Below, piece after piece: positions 7,803-26,675 of a stretch of DNA of 27,791 nucleotides (within the stretch, counting starts at the first letter, position 1; every line of letters begins with the position of its first letter). The DNA lies in the IMG/VR virus record IMGVR_UViG_3300024355_000380, positions 1-27,791 of that record; one strand, 5' to 3'. The translations under genes and the position numbers were made by a program. This DNA is from a virus. The notes beneath the pieces were generated by a model. That model had not been told where the DNA came from. It was given only the letters and a program-made list of their open reading frames with translations, and did no database searches.

Positions 7803-9922
7803 CGCAATCGGGCGTTACACCTCGCCTGCTCAACGTTGAGCAATTCAAGCGGAAGATTGACCGCAGCAATCCTGTTGCCAACATCTACCGAAACGCCATT
7901 GATCTGAACCGCTTCAGCAATGCTGTCGCCCGTCAGATTGTGCGGGATTACAACGCCATCATCCTGAGCGCCGTTGACGATCTAAAGCGCATTGATTTTG
8001 GCGAAGCCACAGCAGGCGCAGGCATTGTCAGCCCGTCATCGGTGCAGGCGCAGCGTCTACGTGTGATCCTTGCTCAGCTCAAGCAATCACTAGATGGCTG
8101 GGCAGATCGCAGCACGGCTTATGCCTCTCGTGAATTACAAGGTTTGGCTGAGCTGCAAACAGAATTTGTCACCGAACAGCTTCGCCTTGCTGTAGCCGGT
8201 GGCGAGGTTGGTGGCCGTGGCATTGAGCCCAGCGTCGTAGCTCAGCAGGCAGTTAATACCGTTGAGGTTGCGCCGAACTTTGCGGCCAGTGTCGCCAGCG
8301 TTGACCCCACGGATTTGAACTTCACGCTCCCAGGTACGGGGCAGTTCAATCTGACTGCAGCGCAGGGTTCAGCTATCACATTGCCCAATGGCGAGGTGGT
8401 GCAAAAAGCGTTTCGTGGATTGGCCGAGTCGCAAGCGCAGCGGTTCAACACCATCGTGCGCACCGGAATCTTGTCAGGTGAACCGACACCGCAGATCGCT
8501 CGGCGCATGGTTGGGAGCCTTGAATTTGGCCAGCTCGCCAAGACTGCACGGCAACAGGCATTAGCCGGTGGTGAGCTTACCCGCATGGCTGATCATCAGG
8601 TATTGACCGTTGTGCGTACAAGCGTGCAACAAGTGGCGAATGAAGCCAGCCAACAGGTCTACCGCGCCAATGAGGAAGTCACCAAGAAATACCGCTACCT
8701 CGCCACGTTGGATAGCCGCACCTCAGCGATTTGCCGCAGCCTTGACGGCAAGGAATTCAAATACGGTGAAGGCCCGATGCCTCCCGTTCACTTCAACTGC
8801 TTACCGGGTGAAGCGCGTGTATCGGCCAGTAGTCAAATCGCGGCGGTTTACCGTCGGCCATATCAAGGCTTTTTGTGTGTCATCAGCACCACCGATGGTG
8901 ACGTGCTCAGAGTCACCCCAAACCACCCTGTATTGACGAATGTCGGCTGGAAGACTGCGCAAAGCGTGCAAATTGGTGATCAGGTTTTCCGCAGCAGTGC
9001 TGTTCCATTGGAAGCTTTTGCAGGCGACCAAAAAAACGACGCTGTAACCACTGCCGAGGATGTATTTAGTGCGTTCGGAAAATCGCCTTCTGTGTTCTCC
9101 GTAGAAGTGCCAATTTCCGCCCCAGATTTCCACGGCGATGTTGCCGCAGAGGATGTCGCAGTTGTACTTGCCAATCGGGAATTGTTGCTCGCAGTGAATC
9201 CCGAACTTTTCAAGATGCTGCGCAACATCAGCCTCCAAGGGTCCGACTCTACGGGCTCTGGCGTTGGCCATTTTGCGCAAAGTTTCCTCGCTGTTGGTGG
9301 TTCCGCGTTTAGCGACGTGAGCGGCGGAAGCCAAAGCCTTTCTTTCAGCGGGGGTGGCTCTGGCCATGCGAGCGAATTGCTGTTCGCTTCTATTTCTGAG
9401 GGTGCGGCCAGAACTCAGGATGATGCGCTCTATGGGACGTGGCGAGACGTTGAACTGCTGAGCGATTCCACGGATCCCGATTCCGTCGTCGTAAAGGGCA
9501 ATGATGCGGTGAAGGTCGTCGGGATTGGACGGGAGCCATTTAGCGGGCATGTCTACAACTTCGAGACCGAAAGCGGCCTGTACTGGGCTGACTCCATTTT
9601 AACCCACAACTGCCGTAGCACCACAATTCCGGTCATTGATTACCGCGCCCTTGGCTTGCGGTCACCCGAGGATGTGATTGGCGAAGCAAAGCGCGCCGCA
9701 CAAGGCGGTGAGGTTTCCGCAGATACAAACTACGGGCAATGGCTACAGCGTCAGCCCAAGGAATATCAAGCCGAAGTGCTCGGCAAGTCGCGTCTGCCGT
9801 ACTTTGAAAAACTCAGCAAAGAACTAGGTCCGCAGCAGGCACTTGCTCGTTTTGTGCGTGAAGACGGCAGCGAAGTTAGCCTGAAACAGTTGCAGCAAAG
9901 ATATGGCAAACCCGACGCTTAA
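7799..9922 (+). CDS. MuF-like minor head protein interrupted by an intein
   Basis: The precursor is 707 residues. Residues 1-333 plus 605-707 form a 436-residue MuF/SPP1 gp7-like protein, which associates with the portal and is carried inside the capsid. The MuF core is seen in VVRTSVQQVANEASQQVYRA, the TLDSRTSAICRSLDGKEF block and PMPPVHFN|CRSTTIPV, where the bar marks the intein insertion. The C-extein has the usual YGQWLQRQPKEYQAEVLGKS tail. Splicing should rejoin N333 to C605 and restore the conserved HxNCR motif. The start ATG overlaps the portal stop by four bases. Because the frame stays open across the insertion, a functional head protein should depend on protein splicing. Confidence 0.9.
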   Translation: MTQSGVTPRLLNVEQFKRKIDRSNPVANIYRNAIDLNRFSNAVARQIVRDYNAIILSAVDDLKRIDFGEATAGAGIVSPSSVQAQRLRVILAQLKQSLDGWADRSTAYASRELQGLAELQTEFVTEQLRLAVAGGEVGGRGIEPSVVAQQAVNTVEVAPNFAASVASVDPTDLNFTLPGTGQFNLTAAQGSAITLPNGEVVQKAFRGLAESQAQRFNTIVRTGILSGEPTPQIARRMVGSLEFGQLAKTARQQALAGGELTRMADHQVLTVVRTSVQQVANEASQQVYRANEEVTKKYRYLATLDSRTSAICRSLDGKEFKYGEGPMPPVHFNCLPGEARVSASSQIAAVYRRPYQGFLCVISTTDGDVLRVTPNHPVLTNVGWKTAQSVQIGDQVFRSSAVPLEAFAGDQKNDAVTTAEDVFSAFGKSPSVFSVEVPISAPDFHGDVAAEDVAVVLANRELLLAVNPELFKMLRNISLQGSDSTGSGVGHFAQSFLAVGGSAFSDVSGGSQSLSFSGGGSGHASELLFASISEGAARTQDDALYGTWRDVELLSDSTDPDSVVVKGNDAVKVVGIGREPFSGHVYNFETESGLYWADSILTHNCRSTTIPVIDYRALGLRSPEDVIGEAKRAAQGGEVSADTNYGQWLQRQPKEYQAEVLGKSRLPYFEKLSKELGPQQALARFVREDGSEVSLKQLQQRYGKPDA
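8798..9610 (+). mobile_element. intein in the MuF gene (271 residues, C334-N604)
   Basis: The splicing blocks are complete. Block A is CLPGEARV with nucleophile C334. Block B is RVTPNHPVLT with T373 and H376. Block F reads GHVYNFETESGLYWADS, and block G is ILTHN with penultimate H603 and terminal N604, followed by the +1 residue C605. The element is placed exactly before the conserved Cys of the MuF HxNCR motif. The residues between blocks B and F are low in recognisable structure (Ser/Gly/Ala/Val/Asp-rich) and contain no LAGLIDADG motif on this strand. The opposite strand of this stretch encodes the endonuclease. The boundaries are set by the block motifs and by the restored extein. Confidence 0.92.
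8801..9550 (-). CDS. Vsr-like (EDxHD-type) homing endonuclease, antisense within the intein
   Basis: This 249-residue protein is read opposite the intein. Residues 13-45 form a resolvase-like helix-turn-helix (YDDGIGIRGIAQQFNVSPRP). Residues ~65-100 are a basic linker. Residues ~103-180 form the nuclease core: PLEADVAQHLEKFGI (E106), GKYNCDILCGNIAVEIWGG (D132, E141), NWHFYGEH (H148), then a hydrophobic YSVVFLVACKS strand. This fits the Vsr-fold EDxHD family known from split-intein loci. QYRVVWGD (residues 206-213) is antisense to intein block B. The ATG complements 9548-9550, and the TAA complements 8801-8803, immediately after the intein's first Cys codon. Codons are in exact register with the sense codons. 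A weak GAAG lies upstream; no promoter is recognised. Confidence 0.8.
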   Translation of the reverse strand: MPAKWLPSNPDDLHRIIALYDDGIGIRGIAQQFNVSPRPIERIILSSGRTLRNRSEQQFARMARATPAERKALASAAHVAKRGTTNSEETLRKMANARARRVGPLEADVAQHLEKFGIHCEQQFPIGKYNCDILCGNIAVEIWGGNWHFYGEHRRRFSERTKYILGSGYSVVFLVACKSFQWNSTAAENLITNLHALRSLPADIRQYRVVWGDSEHVTIGGADDTQKALIWPTVNRRDLTTGRYTRFTR

Positions 9923-11959: not shown

Positions 11960-12976
11960 ATGGCCACGCTCCGCTCGGACGTGATCATTCCCGAAATTTT
12001 TACGCCCTACGTCATTGAGCAAAGCACCCAAAAGAACGCCTTCCTGGCGAGTGGTGTTGCTCAGCCCATGGCTGAACTCAATGCAACTGAGGGCGGCGAT
12101 TTCGTGAATGTTCCTTTCTGGAAAGCCAACCTCTCTGGCGATCTGGAAGTTCTTTCTGATTCCACCAGCCTTACCCCCGGCAAAATCACTGCTGATAAGC
12201 AAATCGGCGTGATCCTGCACCGTGGCCGTGCCTTTGAGGCCCGCGACCTTGCTGCTCTGGCTGCAGGTTCCGACCCCATGGCTGCCATCGGCGCCAAAGT
12301 TGGTGAGTACGTTGCTAACCAGCAGCAGGCTGACCTGTACAAGTGTCTGGAAGGTGTGTTCGGCGCCCTGACCGGCGGTGACTCCCCTGCCTTCGATGCC
12401 CTGCGCTTCGATACCAGCACCCAAACTGCTCTGAGCCCCCGCCACGTGGCTAAGGCCCGTGCACTGCTGGGTGATCAAGGCGAGAAGCTGTCTGCTGTGG
12501 CTCTGCACAGCGCTTGTTACTACGACCTTGTTGAGCGCAAGGCCATTGATTACGTTCTGGCTTCGGATCTGGGTATTAGCCCCGATACCTCCATGCCTGA
12601 CGCCTTCGGTGGTTCTGTGGCTTCTGCCTACAGCGCCGACTATCGCGTTCCTACCTATATGGGTATGCGCGTGATTGTGTCCGATGACATCACCAATTCC
12701 GGTGGTGTGTATGCCGCTTATTTCTTCACCAACGGCGCTATTGCCACCGGTGAGCAAGCTGCAATGCGCACTGAAACCGACCGCGACATCCTCGCCAAGT
12801 CGGACGCAATGTCTCTGGACATGCACTACATCTACCACCCCGTTGGTGCCAAGTGGGCCGTGACCACCACGAACCCCACCCGCGCCCAACTGGCCACGGT
12901 AGGTAACTGGAGCAAGGTGTACGAAACCAAGAACATTGGCATCGTGCGTGCTTCGGTCAGCTCCAATTACGACTGA
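11960..12976 (+). CDS. major capsid protein (HK97-like fold expected)
   Basis: This 338-residue protein starts at the ATG at 11960. Features typical of phage coat proteins of this class are the start RSDVIIPEIFTPYVIEQSTQ, GDFVNVPFWKANLSGDLEVL, the spine-helix-like LAAGSDPMAAIGAKVGEYVA, and near the C-terminus YRVPTYMGMRVIVSDD followed by AYFFTNGAIATGEQ, the P-domain/A-loop pattern. It forms the icosahedral shell. Codon choice is visibly GC-richer and more uniform than in the tail-tip genes, as expected for the most highly expressed phage protein. It follows the scaffold and precedes the decoration protein. Confidence 0.92.
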   Translation: MATLRSDVIIPEIFTPYVIEQSTQKNAFLASGVAQPMAELNATEGGDFVNVPFWKANLSGDLEVLSDSTSLTPGKITADKQIGVILHRGRAFEARDLAALAAGSDPMAAIGAKVGEYVANQQQADLYKCLEGVFGALTGGDSPAFDALRFDTSTQTALSPRHVAKARALLGDQGEKLSAVALHSACYYDLVERKAIDYVLASDLGISPDTSMPDAFGGSVASAYSADYRVPTYMGMRVIVSDDITNSGGVYAAYFFTNGAIATGEQAAMRTETDRDILAKSDAMSLDMHYIYHPVGAKWAVTTTNPTRAQLATVGNWSKVYETKNIGIVRASVSSNYD

Positions 12977-12991
12977 TAGGAGCAACTAACC

Positions 12992-13360
12992 ATGGCTTCC
13001 CTTTTTGAAGTAACCGCAGGCAAGTCGATTGGCTATGTCAGCGGTACTGGCGGTGCTGTTACCCAGGCCACCAGCAAGTCCACTGGCGTCACGCTGAATA
13101 AGCCCTGTGGCGCCATCACCATGCACAACGCTTCGCTTGCCGGCGACGCTGAGGTTTCCTTCACGGTGACCAACAGCGAAGTGGCCGCGACTGATGTTGT
13201 GCTGGTTTCGGTCAAGTCTGGTGCTACCACTGGTAAGTACCTGCCTTTCGTGACCGCCACTGCCGCCGGCAGCTTTGAGATCACTGTTTCCAACGTTGGT
13301 TCTACCGCTGGCGAAGCTGTGGTGCTCAACTTTGCTGTGATCAAGGCAGCTGCTGCCTGA
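12992..13360 (+). CDS. capsid decoration/stabilisation protein
   Basis: This 122-residue protein begins at an ATG preceded by a good ribosome site (AGGAG, about 10 bases upstream). It is rich in Ala, Ser, Thr, Val and Gly, nearly all beta-strand: LFEVTAGKSIGYVSGTGGAV, then EVSFTVTNSEVAATDVVLVS, then SFEITVSNVGSTAGEAVVLN. Size, composition and place directly after the major capsid gene, with a terminator following, fit an outer-surface decoration protein or head-fibre base. The call rests on position and composition; no specific fold is proven. Confidence 0.7.
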   Translation: MASLFEVTAGKSIGYVSGTGGAVTQATSKSTGVTLNKPCGAITMHNASLAGDAEVSFTVTNSEVAATDVVLVSVKSGATTGKYLPFVTATAAGSFEITVSNVGSTAGEAVVLNFAVIKAAAA

Positions 13361-13383: not shown

Positions 13384-13407
13384 GAGGGGTTTTTACCCCT
13401 CTTTTTT
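13384..13407 (+). terminator. terminator after the capsid-decoration pair
   Basis: GAGGGG (13384-13389), loop TTTTTA, CCCCTC (13396-13401), then TTTTTT. On the minus strand the stem also falls at the end of the antisense endonuclease gene, whose stop is in the loop. Confidence 0.9.
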
Positions 13408-13890
13408 ATGTTTGCGTTTATTTGAGGCTTGAATTGTCCAAGTCGCCCAACGGCAATTTTGAGGCTCATAATTTCCATATGGGTCAATTCTGTCCAGTGT
13501 TGTTTGCCCCGGTCTAGGGCCCATATCTTCAATGAATGCGGTAAAACTTTCCCATCTCTGACAAACCTTTACGCCCGAGCCTCCGTAGTAACGAAATGCG
13601 GCGTGGTTTGGGTTGTTGCAACGCTCTCTCATGCCTTGCCAAATCCGATACTCAGGTATTGCGCTTAATCCGTGAAATTCATATCGCGGAACACCGGCAA
13701 CGCATCCGCAAGACTTTGAACGTCCACGTTTCAAGGAAGTTCCTTGAATTTCCCTTTGTCTACCGCACACACAGCGGCACAGCCAATAACAACGCTTGGC
13801 CCCGTTAGGCATTGTTCGCTTTATTGGTGCGTCACCAATGACAGTCCAATTGCCAAAGGTTTGGCCCGCAAGCCATAATGGAGTTCTCAT
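13393..13890 (-). CDS. AP2/HNH-like homing endonuclease-type protein (HNH-3)
   Basis: This 165-residue protein is read leftward from the ATG at 13890-13888, with GGAACAGG just upstream. The N-terminal module LWLAGQTFGNWTVIGDAP, then CYWLCRCVCG, then GRSKSCGC is the zinc-binding/AP2-like block of these proteins. The C-terminal block YRIWQGMRERCNNPNH, YYGGSGVKVCQRW, LDRIDPYGNYEPQNCRWATW is the usual HNH-like end. Such genes are freestanding phage mobile genes. It lies antisense between the decoration and adaptor genes and ends inside the terminator hairpin. It is not similar to HNH-1 or HNH-2. A frame extension to 13944 is possible but covers non-family residues. Confidence 0.82.
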   Translation of the reverse strand: MRTPLWLAGQTFGNWTVIGDAPIKRTMPNGAKRCYWLCRCVCGRQREIQGTSLKRGRSKSCGCVAGVPRYEFHGLSAIPEYRIWQGMRERCNNPNHAAFRYYGGSGVKVCQRWESFTAFIEDMGPRPGQTTLDRIDPYGNYEPQNCRWATWTIQASNKRKHKKEG

Positions 13891-14126
13891 CCTGTTCCGA
13901 GCAGGGTGCGCAAGGCTGGGAGCGCCAACTCGCCAGCCCAACAATTTTACAGCAAGGGAGCAAGATCATCGGACTTTTTGCTTTCCGCAGGCGCCAAGAG
14001 AACAAAGCGGCCAACAAGATCCAAGATCAAGAAACTGCACCTAAACTTGATACAGAAGAGCCGGCGCCTAAAAAGCGTCGCACTGTGAAGTCCAAAGTGG
14101 AGCCCACCGATGGCCATCTCGATTGA
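13878..14126 (+). CDS. small basic/acidic hypothetical protein, start uncertain
   Basis: The coding end is fairly convincing: FAFRRRQENKAANKIQDQET followed by PKKRRTVKSKVEPTDGHLD, overlapping the next gene by 17 bases. The start is not. The ATG at 13878 gives 82 residues but overlaps the first 13 bases of the antisense HNH-3 gene. A strong AAGGGAG at 13951-13957 is followed at proper spacing by an in-frame ATC-ATC (13965), giving (I)IGLFAFRRRQ..., so either a non-standard start or a mutated ATG is possible. The role is unknown. Insertion of HNH-3 may have removed its original 5' end. Confidence 0.45.
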   Translation: MEFSSCSEQGAQGWERQLASPTILQQGSKIIGLFAFRRRQENKAANKIQDQETAPKLDTEEPAPKKRRTVKSKVEPTDGHLD

Positions 14127-14676
14127 CGCCACTGTTGGTGGGGCCTCGGCAAATTCCTACCTGACACTGGCGGCAGCTGAACTGATAGTTGAGGGTTTCG
14201 TTCAAGACGATGACGTAGCCGCTTGGGCGTCAGCCACGAACGATCAGAAGAATCGGGCGCTGTACACCGCAACGCAGCGCCTTGATCGTGAACGCTTTCT
14301 TGGCGCACGGGCTACCGATACTCAAGCTTTGCAATGGCCGCGTACTGGCGTGCGCAAGCCTGACACGTACATCAATACGTACGCTGTTGGGTTCCCGTTC
14401 CGCATCACTACGGACTATTACACCGACACCGAAATTCCTGATCAGATCAAAAAGGCTCAGGTCGTTCTCGCCGTTTACCTGAACAACAACAAAGACGGCA
14501 TGGGCCTGAGCGGCATTGAAGATTACAAGTCGGTTCAGATCGGCACATTGCGTGTGGAGTCTGCGGGCGCCAGCAGCATGGCCACCGGAGCTGATCGTGT
14601 GCCGCCGTTGTTTGAACGCTATCTGACCGGGCTTAGAATCAGTGGACCGGGCAACTTTTCTATCAAACGGAGTTGA
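14110..14676 (+). CDS. head-tail adaptor (DnaT-like / gp6-like connector)
   Basis: This 188-residue protein starts at the ATG at 14110. ASANSYLTLAAAELIVEGFV, then QKNRALYTATQRLDRERFLG, then QALQWPRTGV follows the 'sYatl.eAd.y......W......K..AL..At..ld...w.G.r....Q.L.wPR.g' pattern of the connector proteins annotated as DnaT-like or adaptor Ad1. These bind under the portal and begin head completion. The end, FERYLTGLRISGPGNFSIKR, is also usual. It is the first of the neck genes; three small paralogous genes separate it from the next connector. Confidence 0.8.
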   Translation: MAISIDATVGGASANSYLTLAAAELIVEGFVQDDDVAAWASATNDQKNRALYTATQRLDRERFLGARATDTQALQWPRTGVRKPDTYINTYAVGFPFRITTDYYTDTEIPDQIKKAQVVLAVYLNNNKDGMGLSGIEDYKSVQIGTLRVESAGASSMATGADRVPPLFERYLTGLRISGPGNFSIKRS

Positions 14677-14678
14677 AC

Positions 14679-14915
14679 ATGGCCGATAGCGACTCCTACA
14701 ACATTGGTTTTGAGTACATCAGTGATACTGCTGCTCACACCGGCCGGTTTTACAAGCTGTATGCCTTGGCCGATGCCGTGATCAGTACAGCCACTGTGCA
14801 GAACGCCAGCGGCAATACCTTCACCTCTGTGCCTCTTACCGCAGGCGACAGCATTGAAGGCGTATTCACCAGTGTGACACTGGCATCCGGCAAGATTGTC
14901 GCCTACAAGATCTGA
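14679..14915 (+). CDS. tandem paralogue 1 (AYKI-ending small beta protein)
   Basis: The ATG at 14679, preceded by CGGAG, gives a 78-residue protein; a TTG two codons earlier is less likely. It is the first of three adjacent paralogues. They share a SDTAAHTGRF-like motif near residue 15-25, a G-rich middle, and a common end (GVFTSVTLASGKIVAYKI here). The composition is beta-rich. Small proteins with this 'G.F.s..L.sG.viAYk' end occur in many phage head/tail modules, and their role is uncertain. Candidates are shell decoration or short fibres. Tight packing with the neck genes suggests a structural role. Confidence 0.75.
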   Translation: MADSDSYNIGFEYISDTAAHTGRFYKLYALADAVISTATVQNASGNTFTSVPLTAGDSIEGVFTSVTLASGKIVAYKI

Positions 14916-14917
14916 TC

Positions 14918-15172
14918 ATGGCCAACACCAACAGCATTGATCCGAGCTACAGCATCGGTGCCGACTTTGTGAATACCACTGCGGCAAAGACTGGCCGGTG
15001 GGATCGCATCGTGATCGCCAAAAACAATACGTCGTTCACTGCCATCACAGCGCAGAACTACACGGGCAATACTTTGGTTGGTGAATCGTTCCCGGCTGGG
15101 TTTGAACTGCAAGGCGTCTTTACCGCGTTTACGCTGGCTTCGGCTGGCGCTGTCATTGCCTACAAGATCTGA
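14918..15172 (+). CDS. tandem paralogue 2 (AYKI-ending small beta protein)
   Basis: This 84-residue protein starts at the ATG at 14918, two bases after the preceding stop. It aligns with its neighbours: NTTAAKTGRWDRIVIAKNNT, then TAQNYTGNTLVGESFPAGFE, and the shared end GVFTAFTLASAGAVIAYKI. The DNA at its end (GCCTACAAGATCTGATCATG) is identical to that at the end of paralogue 1, a sign of recent tandem duplication. The function is presumably the same as paralogue 1, but the middle has diverged. Confidence 0.75.
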   Translation: MANTNSIDPSYSIGADFVNTTAAKTGRWDRIVIAKNNTSFTAITAQNYTGNTLVGESFPAGFELQGVFTAFTLASAGAVIAYKI

Positions 15173-15174
15173 TC

Positions 15175-15429
15175 ATGGCAAAAGCACGGGGCGGCGCATC
15201 TGTTGTTGACTACGCGGTTGGCGCCGAGGTGATTACCGACACTGTTGCCCATACCGGCAGGTTTAGTCATATCGACTTCTACGAAAACAGCACGGTTGAC
15301 GCGATCATTTCGACCAACGTGATCGACAATAATTTTGCCGGTGCTGCCATTGATTCCGGTGCTCACCTGACTGGTTATTTCACCAGTATCAAACTTACAA
15401 ACGGCGCCTGCATCGCCTACAAAATCTGA
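15175..15429 (+). CDS. tandem paralogue 3 (AYKI-ending small beta protein)
   Basis: This 84-residue protein starts at the ATG at 15175, again two bases after the stop of paralogue 2. The shared frame is DTVAHTGRFSHIDFYENST, then a diverged middle, then GYFTSIKLTNGACIAYKI. It is the most divergent in the middle and N-terminus. Its TGA overlaps the next connector's ATG (TGATG), so the three paralogues are embedded in the neck operon and not on a separate transcript. Three non-identical copies suggest either a mixed oligomer or divergence of a surface-exposed protein. Confidence 0.75.
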   Translation: MAKARGGASVVDYAVGAEVITDTVAHTGRFSHIDFYENSTVDAIISTNVIDNNFAGAAIDSGAHLTGYFTSIKLTNGACIAYKI

Positions 15430-15785
15430 TGGCACTTGCAACCTCATTGCGGAAGACCGCCAGCAAGCTGATGCTGAAATTTGGTGGCCAAGTCACCATC
15501 CGACGTATTACCACCGGCGCTTACAACCCAACCACAGGCGTGGCAACACCAACAGCATCGGAAACCGTTGTGCGTGGCGTGCTTGAAGATGTGATTGAGC
15601 GCGAGATCAACGATCTGGTAAAGAGCACCGATAAGAAGCTCACAATCGCCGCCGCTGATCTTGCCTACGAGCCTGCAGTGTCTGATCAGGTGACTGTATC
15701 TAGCCGCATTATGCAGGTGGTTGAGGTGCGCAAAATCGAGCAGGACAATACGCCTATTGTGTTTGAAGTATTCCTGAGAGAGTGA
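15429..15785 (+). CDS. head closure / head-tail connector protein
   Basis: This 118-residue protein starts at the ATG at 15429. LMLKFGGQVTIRRITTGAYN, then ATPTASETVVRGVLEDVIER, then VSDQVTVSSRIMQVVEVRKI fits small beta-barrel head-closure proteins (SPP1 gp16/HK97 Hc1 type): an early 'G..vti.r...g.y.p.tG' strand pair and a central beta barrel. These seal the connector after packaging and offer the surface to which the tail binds. Its place between adaptor and gp10-like protein matches the usual order. Confidence 0.75.
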   Translation: MALATSLRKTASKLMLKFGGQVTIRRITTGAYNPTTGVATPTASETVVRGVLEDVIEREINDLVKSTDKKLTIAAADLAYEPAVSDQVTVSSRIMQVVEVRKIEQDNTPIVFEVFLRE

Positions 15786-15786
15786 C

Positions 15787-16191
15787 ATGGCACGCACCAT
15801 CAGGGTTGGTGAGATCGGTGATTACGCGGAACGTCAGTTAAATCTGTTGGTTAAAGCCGCTGTGTTGACCGCTGATCAACGATTGAAGCTTGCCAGCCCT
15901 GTAGATACAGGTCGCTTTCGTGCTAGTTGGGCGATTGGCGAAAACGCAGCACCTTCAAAAGGGCAGCCAGAGGGCGAGTATCCAAGTAACCCGGCGCCAA
16001 CTGCAGTCAATTACAGCCTTGGCAACGAGCGTATCGGGAATGTTTACAGCATTCACAACAACCTGATTTACGCCGAACCCCTTGCACGGGGGCACAGCAA
16101 ACAGGCGGAAGACGGCTGGGTTGATTCGATTGCCAAAGACGTTCAGACTTACGTCAACGCCGAAGCGGACCGGATTGGTCGATCATCATGA
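15787..16191 (+). CDS. HK97 gp10-like neck/tail-completion protein
   Basis: This is a 134-residue protein. The centre, KLASPVDTGRFRASWAIGEN, and the later YSIHNNLIYAEPLARGHSKQ, followed by GWVDSIAKDV, are the marks of HK97 gp10-like proteins (Pv.tGrlr.s......N...Ya..le.G.s.qap.Gmv). They take part in joining head and tail, probably at the neck. The ATG at 15787 is one base after the preceding stop, and the 3' end overlaps the next start by four bases (ATGA). Confidence 0.88.
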   Translation: MARTIRVGEIGDYAERQLNLLVKAAVLTADQRLKLASPVDTGRFRASWAIGENAAPSKGQPEGEYPSNPAPTAVNYSLGNERIGNVYSIHNNLIYAEPLARGHSKQAEDGWVDSIAKDVQTYVNAEADRIGRSS

Positions 16192-16619
16192 GCCTTAACA
16201 CCGTCCGCGCCTACATCGAAAATCGGATCGCAACGGAGTTTGCCGCTTCGCCTGCTATTCAGGTTGCCTATCAGAACGTCCCTTTTACGCCGCCGAACAA
16301 CGCAAGCTGGATTCAAACCAGCATTATCTGGGGTGACTCTGCCTACATGACGATCCTTACAACGTCATCGCGTGGCACTGGTGCAGGCTTTGATCGTCGT
16401 AACGGCACTCTTGTGTTCAACATCTTTGCTCCGCGTGGTGGTGGTCCTGGTGCTGGCCTGACGATTGCTCAGCGTTGCATCACCCTATTTTCACGTTTGC
16501 AGCTTGAAAATATAAAGTTTGACGCCGCAAATGGTCCGCGCACCATTGAACCATCGTCACCGGAAGGGTTTTCGCAAACGCAGGTCGTCATAACTTTTGA
16601 AGCTTATGAGCAAAGCTAG
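16188..16619 (+). CDS. tail terminator protein
   Basis: This 143-residue protein starts at the ATG at 16188. Its layout is that of lambda gpU-like/DUF4128-type terminators: a first helix TVRAYIENRIATEFAASPAI, then YQNVPFTPPNNASWIQTSII, then the strand GTLVFNIFAPRGGGPGAGLT, and the helix TIAQRCITLFSRL. Tail terminators cap the finished tube and stop its growth at the length set by the tape measure, then bind the neck. It lies between the gp10-like and tail-tube genes, the usual order. Confidence 0.8.
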   Translation: MSLNTVRAYIENRIATEFAASPAIQVAYQNVPFTPPNNASWIQTSIIWGDSAYMTILTTSSRGTGAGFDRRNGTLVFNIFAPRGGGPGAGLTIAQRCITLFSRLQLENIKFDAANGPRTIEPSSPEGFSQTQVVITFEAYEQS

Positions 16620-16648: not shown

Positions 16649-17407
16649 ATGGCTGTCACTGTTCTGTCCGGTACGTCCGGCGCCCTTTACTACAAGCCCG
16701 CTGGAACCACCGGAACTTTCGGTGAGTCTGGTGTGAATACTTCTACTGAAACCATCACGGTTGAGCCTTACCTGAATTTCAAGGTTGGCGATCCCGTCAA
16801 GTTCCGTGTTGTTAATAGCCAGACTGGCGAAGCTGGCACTGGCACCCTGCCCGCTGGCCTTTCTGCTGGTACTACCTATTACGTAATTGCCTACACCGCC
16901 AGCTCTGGTGCTCTGCAGGTTTCCGCTTCTGCTGGCGGTGCTGCTGTCAACATCACTGATGATGGCACTGCTGCTGCACCTAACGAGTTTGAGGTGTATT
17001 ACGCCGATTATGCCGCCGTGGGCCAAGTTCAGTCCTGGGGCTTTGAAATTTCACGTTCGGAAATTGATGTTACAACCATCGGTCAAACCGCTGGGCAGTA
17101 CGCACCTTTCCGTGCTTATATCCCCGGTTTCGCTGATGGCACTGGCACTGCCACTGTGTACGTCACCAACGAAGACAGCGCCCTGTCTAACCGCATGGTG
17201 GAAGACGTGCTGCAGCGTCAGCAAGTTGGTTGTGCCTTCAAGCTGTACACCGACAAGCAAAGCTCTGAGGCCCTCAGTCGCTCCATTGCCATGGATGCTG
17301 TGCTGCTGACCGCAAGCCTGAACGTCAACCCCGACGACGCTCAACAGGTTGAAATCACCTTCCGCCCTGCTGGCGTGCCGACCTTCGATTTCAGCACCTC
17401 CGCCTGA
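16649..17407 (+). CDS. major tail tube protein with an inserted domain
   Basis: This 252-residue protein starts at the ATG at 16649. Tube-fold signs are VGQVQSWGFEISRSEIDVTT, then FRAYIPGFADGTGTATVYVT, then the ending QQVEITFRPAGVPTF. An extra segment between about residues 45 and 110 (FKVGDPVKFRVVNS..., LPAGLSAGTTYYVIAY, then SGALQVSASAGGAAVNITDD) resembles the 'GDpV.f...lP.gl..gt.YyVia....' modules seen in tail and fibre proteins and probably projects from the tube. It polymerises around the tape measure. Its position before the chaperone genes and the terminator after it support major-tube status. Confidence 0.82.
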   Translation: MAVTVLSGTSGALYYKPAGTTGTFGESGVNTSTETITVEPYLNFKVGDPVKFRVVNSQTGEAGTGTLPAGLSAGTTYYVIAYTASSGALQVSASAGGAAVNITDDGTAAAPNEFEVYYADYAAVGQVQSWGFEISRSEIDVTTIGQTAGQYAPFRAYIPGFADGTGTATVYVTNEDSALSNRMVEDVLQRQQVGCAFKLYTDKQSSEALSRSIAMDAVLLTASLNVNPDDAQQVEITFRPAGVPTFDFSTSA

Positions 17408-24980: not shown

Positions 24981-25354
24981 TGCCCTATCCAACGCTTGCT
25001 CCTTCAACCCGCGATTACGCTCCAGGTGATTGGCCGGTCAAGGTTTTTCCTGCGCAATCTGGAGCAGAAGTACGCATCCGGTACGGCAACCAGCGAACAA
25101 ACCCAACTTTGGCGCTGAGTTACGACAACATTACGGATGCCAATGCCGACGCTTTCCTTGTTCATTACAATGAAACACAAGGCACCTTTTTGACTTTTAC
25201 CTTGCCAACAGAGGCGCTTACTGGCTGGAGGGGTGCTGCGTTAAATGCAGGTAGCGGCACCAATGCTGCTTGGCGTTATTCGTCGCCACCGCAGGTGACC
25301 AATATTCGCCCTGGGATTTCCAGCGTTAGAGTTGAACTGGTGGGAGTCATCTAA
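24980..25354 (+). CDS. minor tail protein (gpM-like)
   Basis: This 124-residue protein starts at the ATG overlapping the tail-tip stop (TAATG). APSTRDYAPGDWPVKVFPAQ, then RTNPTLALSYDNITDANADA, then TFTLPTEALTGWRGAALNAG, and a final RPGISSVRVELVGVI fits the gpM-like minor tail or 'Phage_tail_3' proteins, which pack against the tail tip. It is beta-rich with no signal or membrane segment. It is translationally coupled on both sides. Confidence 0.7.
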   Translation: MPYPTLAPSTRDYAPGDWPVKVFPAQSGAEVRIRYGNQRTNPTLALSYDNITDANADAFLVHYNETQGTFLTFTLPTEALTGWRGAALNAGSGTNAAWRYSSPPQVTNIRPGISSVRVELVGVI

Positions 25355-25779
25355 TGGCTAAGGTCTATACCGGTCGCGATGGACGCCTGCTAATCGACGG
25401 CGTTTCCCAGCTCAAGGTCAGCAACTGGACTTTGACTGGCTCCCTCGAAGTTCTTGAGACAACCACACTGGGACAAGCACAGCGTAGTTATGTACCTGGC
25501 GTTCAGGAATTTAACGGCAGTGCCACACTTCTGTATTACAAAGACGACGAAGATCGTAACGATGCCGCTACGGCATTGAAAAAAATTCTACGTGTTGATG
25601 GTGTAGCCAGTACAGACACTGTTACGTTACGTCTTCGCCTTAGAGACGGAACAATTGTCAATGATGTTGAACTAACTGCATACATTACAAGCGTAAGTTT
25701 TGGTGCCAGTGTTGGGGAAGTTACTCGTGCAGAGATTTCTTTCCAAGGCACAGGGGCCCTCACTGCGGTGACAATCTAA
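25354..25779 (+). CDS. second tail-tube-like protein
   Basis: This 141-residue protein starts at the ATG overlapping the previous stop. GRDGRLLIDGVSQLKVSNWT, then GSLEVLETTTLGQAQRSYVP, then GVQEFNGSATLLYYKDDEDR, then GEVTRAEISFQGTGAL is the strand order of phage tail tube proteins. It aligns with the fold part of the larger tube protein at 16649, without that protein's inserted domain. It may form a special ring near the tip, or it may be a minor tube or fibre-attachment subunit. The call as tube fold is strong; its place in the virion is inferred. Confidence 0.75.
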   Translation: MAKVYTGRDGRLLIDGVSQLKVSNWTLTGSLEVLETTTLGQAQRSYVPGVQEFNGSATLLYYKDDEDRNDAATALKKILRVDGVASTDTVTLRLRLRDGTIVNDVELTAYITSVSFGASVGEVTRAEISFQGTGALTAVTI

Positions 25780-26675
25780 TGGGACTTTATTTAGGCAATG
25801 TCGGCAATATTGAGCTGACGCGCAAATCATTGGAAGGCAATAAAACTTCTATCGTTAATCCATCCGATGTAAATGCGAATAGGGATCGTTTTAGCTTCGA
25901 TTTTGATTCTGGTTTTTTAATCAGTGGCGATCTACTGGAGCTTTCGACAACTGACGGCACAAATTTAGATTTTGTTGCAGCAAGCGGATGGGCCAATAAT
26001 ACAGTTCAAACAAGCGGGAACTGGTACGCCTACGTTGATGATTTGGGCGGAATTAAGTTGTACAGCAGTTTTGATGCGAGCCTAGAAGGCGGTTCAACTG
26101 GCTTGATCCCACTTACTGCTATCGCACGCGACATTCCAATTCGCGCCGTAATTCGTGATCGTGATTCGCGACTATTGGCATCGGTAACAGAGTACGAACT
26201 GAACACTAATCGTGAAGTTGTTGATATTACAACTCTTAGTGACGAGCATCGCCAGCAATACAGCAGTTTGATCACTGGAAGTGGACGACTGACCGCCCAA
26301 TGGGATTACGTTAATAATGGCGAAGTAGAGCCTGTCAATTATTTAATGCAGTTAGTGCTTAGGACTGAAATTGGATCCGCATTTCACGGTAAATTTTATA
26401 TTAAATACCCCAATACGACTGCACATGCTGGGTCGTTTGCGGCAACTCAGATCAATGACGCCCTATGGTGGGAATTTGATGCTCTTGTGACTGCTAGTGC
26501 GGTCAGCTTTACCACTGATGCACTTGTGGTCGGCACAATTGATTTTGTTGCCACTGGACCGATTCGACTTAAGGCTCAGATATTGCCCAACCGCTATCTG
26601 TTGCAGGAAGACACAGGCAAGATCGAGCTGGAGCAGGATCCAGATTCCTTTATGCTGTTGGAAGAACGGGAGTAA
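25779..26675 (+). CDS. cyanophage-type tail structural protein, tube-like C-terminal half
   Basis: This 298-residue protein starts at the ATG overlapping the previous stop (TAATG). The first half begins MGLYLGNVGNIELTRKS and has RDRFSFDFDSGFLISGDLLE, then AYVDDLGGIKLYSSFDASLE. The second half, TEYELNTNREVVDITTLSDE then HRQQYSSLITGSGRLTAQWD, followed by VVGTIDFVATGPIRL, echoes the 'E..dtTTLg.....y.pG....G..t..y' pattern of tube folds. The C-terminus is acidic (EQDPDSFMLLEERE). I recall similar cyanophage proteins of unknown function next to tail fibres. It probably links tail tip and fibre. Confidence 0.7.
   Translation: MGLYLGNVGNIELTRKSLEGNKTSIVNPSDVNANRDRFSFDFDSGFLISGDLLELSTTDGTNLDFVAASGWANNTVQTSGNWYAYVDDLGGIKLYSSFDASLEGGSTGLIPLTAIARDIPIRAVIRDRDSRLLASVTEYELNTNREVVDITTLSDEHRQQYSSLITGSGRLTAQWDYVNNGEVEPVNYLMQLVLRTEIGSAFHGKFYIKYPNTTAHAGSFAATQINDALWWEFDALVTASAVSFTTDALVVGTIDFVATGPIRLKAQILPNRYLLQEDTGKIELEQDPDSFMLLEERE

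Follow-up and report, generated by a model that had tools for sequence, protein, structure and literature searches.

The three small genes at positions 14,679 to 15,429 of the window, as we call the whole 27,791-base virus record analysed here, are true paralogues that fill a slot between the head-tail adaptor and head closure genes, and in related viruses the content of this slot is partly inherited and often replaced. On balance, we think that they probably encode small virion surface proteins housed in an exchangeable appendage slot, which would form a spike base or knob on the head vertex or the neck, a reading that draws on predicted structures and on analogy with described particles. The analysis gives a function hypothesis for phrog_34166, a PHROG family with no assigned function and with many members in a viral contig collection, and points to a slot among the neck genes in which relatives of Synechococcus and Prochlorococcus siphophages have exchanged appendage-like sets; if these sets are appendages, their exchange would bear on how phages alter host attachment. 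We regard this as helpful in pursuing a family without an assigned function, and not as a new kind of system.

Three paralogues between the adaptor and head closure genes

The window contains genes for terminase, portal, head morphogenesis, scaffold, capsid, neck, tail and tape-measure proteins. Its major capsid protein (phrog_247; 11960..12976, plus strand) shares 73% identity with its counterpart in Synechococcus phage KBS-S-2A and 71% with the one in S-H1, which makes a cyanobacterium the likely host of this virus. The left border of the slot is the head-tail adaptor gene Ad1 (phrog_477; 14110..14676) and the right border is the head closure gene Hc1 (phrog_161; 15429..15785), followed by the genes for the tail completion protein Neck1 (phrog_169; 15787..16191) and the tail terminator (phrog_179; 16188..16619), all on the plus strand. 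Between the two borders, on the same strand, lie copy 1 (14679..14915; 78 aa), which adjoins Ad1, copy 2 (14918..15172; 84 aa) and copy 3 (15175..15429; 84 aa), the stop codon of which overlaps the start of Hc1 by one base; these belong to groups 1, 2 and 3, respectively, of the family tree described below.

Pairwise alignment of the three proteins gave scores of 142, 126 and 112, compared with maxima of 26, 28 and 25 in 2000 shuffles per pair (z over the shuffles, 11.5–15.1), with 35/78, 33/74 and 32/80 residues identical between copies and whole-gene DNA identities of 63–66%. The first-pass annotation, which had described three tandem paralogues within the neck gene run, was therefore borne out and had placed them correctly, and the shared features that it listed were also present: all three copies contain a T.A.TGR motif (TAAHTGRF, TAAKTGRW and TVAHTGRF) and end in AYKI, and two bases separate copy 1 from copy 2 and copy 2 from copy 3 (TGA-TC-ATG in both cases), as they do Ad1 from copy 1 (TGA-AC-ATG).

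The same annotation had drawn attention to identical 20-base junctions, and these are real at both boundaries: the 20-mer GCCTACAAGATCTGATCATG occurs exactly twice, at the end of copy 1 and start of copy 2 (14901..14920, plus strand) and at the end of copy 2 and start of copy 3 (15158..15177, plus strand). There is, however, nothing special about them, as the match was perfect in only 4 of 63 three-copy loci (the window, L001, L002 and L085), a set that includes contigs fetched twice, L002 and L085 being one contig; the other loci matched at 12–19 of the 20 bases. Copy 2 of L001 and of L002 is 100% identical to copy 2 of the window. A role for the junction as a recombination site was dropped after this comparison, and in our reading the junction would be the product of a conserved A-Y-K-[IL] end, a TGA stop and the two-base gap to the next ATG, with no separate repeat element.

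Several observations concern the genes around the slot. An HNH endonuclease open reading frame (13393-13944, minus strand; phrog_374, E 4e-57) lies between the post-capsid gene and Ad1, on the opposite strand to them, and among 95 sequences with both of these genes a gap of more than 350 nt separated them only in the window and L001 (752 nt). Relatives of this endonuclease were also seen in L002/L085 and L118, with weaker ones in L008 and L173, and an annotated endonuclease lies within the adaptor/head closure slot of KBS-S-2A (L081, 12192-12860), so that two different phages have nuclease genes within the slot or close to it. The post-capsid gene itself (12992-13360; phrog_18251) has relatives at the same place in KBS-S-2A and MED4-184 and no match there in S-H1. 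Three open reading frames matched major tail protein PHROGs (16649-17407, phrog_158; 25354-25779, phrog_1407; and 25779-26675, phrog_158, weakly at E 5.6e-4), the latter two lying far downstream, past a 1294-aa tail gene.

Slot contents and selection among related viruses

Significant matches to phrog_34166 (PHROGs v4) over most of the length of the 81-position profile were obtained with all three copies: residues 14-76 of copy 1 aligned with positions 15-79 (E 9.6e-12), residues 17-82 of copy 2 with 14-79 (E 3.9e-5) and residues 17-82 of copy 3 with 12-79 (E 8.8e-7). Searches of Pfam and NCBIfam with the three copies returned no match, and neither did a DNA search of the three genes against the phage collection. 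Among 50,697 phage records, copies 2 and 3 found nothing at E 0.01 and copy 1 found five records of the MED4-184/MED4-117/P-HS2 group; with the MED4-184 protein and copy 1 of L087 as further queries, extra rows appeared only at E 2 to 4, such that all matches at E ≤0.01 fell in MED4-184, MED4-117 and P-HS2, at one place each. Copy 1 of the window had no relative among host genome contigs, and copy 1 of L087 had one there, L184, on a contig labelled Prochlorococcus sp. AG-355-N18; this divergent single copy (8001-8219; 59% to L087 copy 1) perhaps came from an infecting phage. Scans of the viral contig collection for the adaptor and for the family each gave at least 600 rows.

As the first-pass annotation had proposed, we compared copy number among relatives. 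With copy 2 as the query, viral contigs yielded 95 relatives, and we retained the best 80 loci; in 85 sequences (these 80 plus L081-L084 and the window) there were three copies in 45, two in 36, one in 2 and none in 2, and wherever both border genes were present the copies were situated between Ad1 and Hc1. Since this set is biased by its query, copy number was taken instead from loci recruited with an adaptor alignment (the best 80 of 583), 74 of which have both borders; L090, L111, L130, L138, L142 and L157 lack a border gene and were left out. The slot varied from zero to three copies in these 74 loci, with three in 12, two in 44, one in 16 and none in 2. Over all loci, none of 391 family members was on the minus strand.

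A tree of 81 representatives divided the family into group 1 (17 rows), group 2 (25), group 3 (28) and two further groups that we labelled X (7) and Y (4). Groups 1, 2, 3 and X formed starred sets and Y did not form a single set, on a tree that has few columns, unsettled bootstrap values and long branches meeting between groups 1 and 2, and from which members shorter than 70 aa were left out. The MED4-184 and L184 proteins were long branches within group 1. A group Y member (L143, 6308-6559) resembles group 3 by eye in its N- and C-terminal parts and group 2 in its middle, as would a mosaic or an ancestral form.

Among the same 74 loci (best 80 of 583), the slot most often held group 1 with X (19 loci), the pair 2-3 (15), group 1 with an insert of other genes (14), groups 1, 2 and 3 as in the window (12), or group 1 with Y (7), and more rarely an insert followed by 2-3 (3), an insert only (2) or group 1 alone (2). 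Groups 2 and 3 co-occurred in 30 of 30 loci. Group 1 was present in 54 of the 74, was the first gene in every one of these, and had exactly one kind of partner in 52 and none in 2; the pair 2-3 was retained in the absence of group 1 in 18.

Sorted by motif, the 14 inserts that accompany group 1 comprised 8 with a 177-aa protein that starts with NPFT, as do the slot proteins of KBS-S-2A and S-H1, plus a gene of approximately 70 aa, 4 with an LtfC-like and a fibre-like gene, and 2 unclassified (L125 and L144). All three inserts that precede 2-3 contained a lectin-like gene of 587 or 596 aa, and the two loci with zero copies held a lectin-like and an LtfC-like gene (L139) or two small open reading frames (L152). 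"Fibre" is in part our own label for these inserts, and family searches covered the genes of five loci (L134, L136, L139, L144 and L147). In these, phrog_5939 ("tail protein") was matched by the 587-aa protein of L147 (E 3.9e-81) and a 445-aa protein of L139 (E 2.9e-77), the 113-aa protein of L136 matched LtfC (PF23926; 29.4 bits, cut-off 27) and phrog_3304, and the 326-aa protein of L136 matched a tail-fibre family over its 43 C-terminal residues only (E 1.5e-4). No tail family was matched by the 177-aa NPFT-start protein from L134 or by that of 188 aa from L144.

On an adaptor tree of 78 rows (the 74 loci, drawn from the best 80 of 583, plus the window, L081, L082 and L083), slot content changed 29 times over 8 states, or 24 times when the last module only was counted, compared with an average of 49.1 changes when labels were shuffled; this tree is poorly resolved, with 12 of 55 inner branches starred, and many of its loci are short contigs, some of them near copies. 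Slot content is therefore partly inherited and frequently replaced. Two sets of identical adaptors had different slot contents, and the cluster to which copy 1 of the window belongs (88% identity or more, 18 loci) was paired with 2-3 in 5 loci, with X in 11 and with inserts in 2.

The divergence of the copies, which had earlier been taken to suggest a surface-exposed family, was not supported as a mark of a rapidly changing exposed surface. In 45 three-copy loci with distinct copy-2 DNA, median orthologue identity was 0.75, 0.77 and 0.75 for copies 1, 2 and 3; among neighbouring genes, for some of which fewer loci were available, it was 0.82 for capsid (17 loci), 0.81 for Ad1 (39), 0.69 for the post-capsid gene (26), 0.53 for Hc1 (44) and 0.47 for the tail terminator (28). 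Median dN/dS, from pairs with dS of 0.1-1.5 only, was 0.15, 0.10 and 0.10 for copies 1–3, 0.08 for Ad1, 0.12 for capsid and 0.14 for Hc1. Copies within one locus had a median identity of 0.35-0.41. Groups 1–3 are thus under purifying selection and are conserved above the level of Hc1 and the tail terminator, and the divergence among copies is old and has been kept; as far as sequence comparison can tell, this speaks for separate fixed roles of the copies, rather than antigen-like drift.

Predicted fold and candidate functions

AlphaFold2 predicted an all-beta fold, with six strands in copy 1 (pLDDT 86.2, pTM 0.73) and five in copy 2 (pLDDT 81.5, pTM 0.69); the N-terminal arm of copy 1 was of low confidence (pLDDT 53 for residues 1-10). 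In Foldseek searches of the PDB neither model had a match at E 0.001 or better, and in BFVD the copy 2 model had 10 such matches, none with a named function. Structural comparison of the two models gave VIA Z scores of 5.6 and 6.5 to 6tb9_A1, an 84-aa chain of the capsid of the gene transfer agent RcGTA, and there was a further match to 8cjz_h, an 87-aa chain of the Carin-1 capsid (Z 5.7, rmsd 3.0, 73 aligned residues; Foldseek TM 0.56/0.51). These phage and GTA chains are tied with thiamine pyrophosphokinase (Z 6.0-6.5), Clp1 and gamma-carboxylase are within about one Z unit, and cupins and RmlC-like proteins were also among the matches. Single-protein PDB searches gave nothing useful, and beta-lactamase inhibitory protein II, which profile searches of the PDB matched, was set aside because the matches rest on an 18-residue stretch repeated within it.

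In the reading that we prefer, the copies would be small beta-sandwich or jelly-roll surface proteins produced together with the neck proteins, and the slot between Ad1 and Hc1 would be an exchangeable appendage module, with group 1 as its usual first gene and, as the partner, the 2-3 pair, one of the small paralogues X and Y, or a set of fibre-like genes. The proteins may serve as a spike base or a knob, situated at the head vertices or at the neck and anchored through their variable N-terminal arm, and the partner may be the exposed part that contacts the host surface. A surface role is suggested by the fibre-like, LtfC-like and lectin-like genes that occupy the same slot and by the resemblance of the models to capsid-attached phage and GTA chains; the earlier proposal of a surface-exposed family in the neck and head region therefore retains its paralogy, its neck location and, by context and predicted fold, its surface role. 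A limited literature search for virion proteomics of MED4-117, MED4-184, P-HS2 or phrog_34166 yielded no direct evidence that the proteins are virion components, and the term "mass spectrometry" occurred zero times in the available part of PMC7852597. Our reading encloses two forms, head vertex and neck, that differ only in the site on the particle and cannot be told apart from sequence.

The first form, which we hold tentatively, is that the proteins would be the bases of head-vertex spikes, as homo- or mixed pentamers on capsid pentons, that share descent with the RcGTA protein Rcc01079 and the 87-aa Carin-1 chain. The length of the copies, the predicted six-strand fold, the low-confidence N-terminal arm and the matches to 6tb9_A1 and 8cjz_h are consistent with this. 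The accessible portion of PMC7296036 describes the RcGTA base protein as a pentameric six-strand jelly roll that sits by its N-terminus on capsid pentons and bears a head fibre, of which only residues 2-10 were resolved. Given that limited resolution of the fibre and the 84-residue length of the matched chain, we take 6tb9_A1, by inference, to be Rcc01079, the base protein. However, the matches to phage and GTA chains tie with those to unrelated folds, profile searches of the PDB (A1 and A4) gave no 6tb9 or 8cjz chain up to E 10, and the genes are grouped with neck genes. The window, a partial genome, also lacks an RcGTA-like fibre start of alternating hydrophobic residues and glycine, a pattern that fits 3 of 21253 open reading frames over all loci.

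The second form, to which we give slightly less credence, is that the proteins may be parts of a neck (collar) appendage, as beads or adaptors of neck fibres docked on the adaptor ring in the manner of gp82/gp81/gp80 of cyanophage A-1(L). The genes lie between the adaptor and head closure genes, where fibre-like genes replace them in other loci, and the neck of A-1(L) carries five bead-chain fibres built of small repeated parts, according to the available text of PMC10966104. The place of a gene need not tell where its product sits on the particle, however, and the A-1(L) fibre parts gp80-82 are numbered apart from the neck proteins gp5 and gp7 in the same source. The carbohydrate-binding tip of these fibres did not bind the host (PMC10966104, as far as available), which counts against assuming host contact in our preferred reading as a whole.

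A more specific version of the appendage reading, and again a tentative one, is that the slot is a plug-in port, in which the conserved group 1 protein would be a socket that takes interchangeable tops (fibres, LtfC-type sets, or fibre-less knobs made from X, Y or 2-3), so that a phage could change from fibre to knob adhesion, or back, by replacing one cassette while keeping its adaptor. Contrary to a socket with a top, the pair 2-3 is accompanied by neither group 1 nor an insert in 15 of the 74 loci (best 80 of 583), and group 1 is alone in 2, as it is in MED4-184. In loci where no group 1 gene precedes it, the pair 2-3 occurs by itself or after a lectin-like gene.

We consider it unlikely that the copies are assembly factors, such as chaperones or plugs, that serve the joining of adaptor and head closure proteins and are absent from the finished particle. 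Their position between two connector genes, a two-base spacing that suggests coupled translation, and strong purifying selection would all suit such factors. However, the annotated adaptor gene directly adjoins the head closure gene in Bacillus phage 049ML001 (capsid 36% identical), and in the 74 loci (best 80 of 583) two have no copy and 18 have 2-3 and no group 1; no copy therefore seems indispensable to the joint.

Small cupin-like enzymes or binding proteins encoded as accessory genes are less likely still. Cupin enzymes have conserved metal-binding His and Glu residues; the cupins and RmlC-like proteins among the fold matches would fit this possibility, but the invariant residues of 80 aligned family members were T, G, G, T, L, A and Y, none of the positions being invariant or close to invariant for His, Asp, Glu or Cys, and on the lack of any invariant residue of catalytic type we judged an enzyme unlikely. 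Pfam, NCBIfam and PHROGs likewise gave no match to an enzyme family for the window copies, and in the loci examined the copies lie in the slot on the strand of the structural genes. No single-copy relative with an enzymatic role was seen; MED4-184 was the one scanned, with no match in NCBIfam.

Comparison with known systems

Whiskers, which had been suggested for the family, do not fit in the T4 sense of the word: the fibritin of T4-type whiskers is a long trimeric coiled coil, whereas the copies are proteins of 78–84 aa with beta models and no long helix. The RcGTA base protein Rcc01079 resembles them in length and in its N-terminal arm and may resemble them in fold, as predicted (with Z tied to unrelated folds), but had no detectable sequence link to them in the PDB profile searches up to E 10, and the window, a partial genome, lacks the matching fibre start; because of the tie we keep this relationship as a lead only. 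Chain 8cjz_h of Carin-1, a podophage of Cobetia marina, is similar in length and in its modelled superposition as given above, and likewise differs in having no sequence link in the PDB profile searches; the accessible parts of PMC11440229, PMC13317679 and PMC11476376 do not describe it. The neck fibres of the Anabaena phage A-1(L) may be comparable as small repeated appendage parts at a cyanophage neck, a likeness by description on their side and by gene position in the window; A-1(L) differs in being a myophage with trimeric parts, of which gp82 has 241 residues (available text of PMC10966104).

Further comparisons are with cyanophages that have the same slot. KBS-S-2A and S-H1 carry fibre-like sets at the position of the window copies, in each case a gene of 68 or 82 aa and an NPFTG-start protein of 280 or 491 aa, annotated "tail fiber protein" in S-H1; these sets have no family-profile match. 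The Prochlorococcus phages MED4-184 and MED4-117 resemble the window in having a relative of the copies between Ad1 and a gene that matches Hc1, and P-HS2, also a Prochlorococcus phage, matches the family as well; in these phages, however, the family is represented by one group 1 copy, which forms a long branch in the tree, whereas the window has three copies from different groups.
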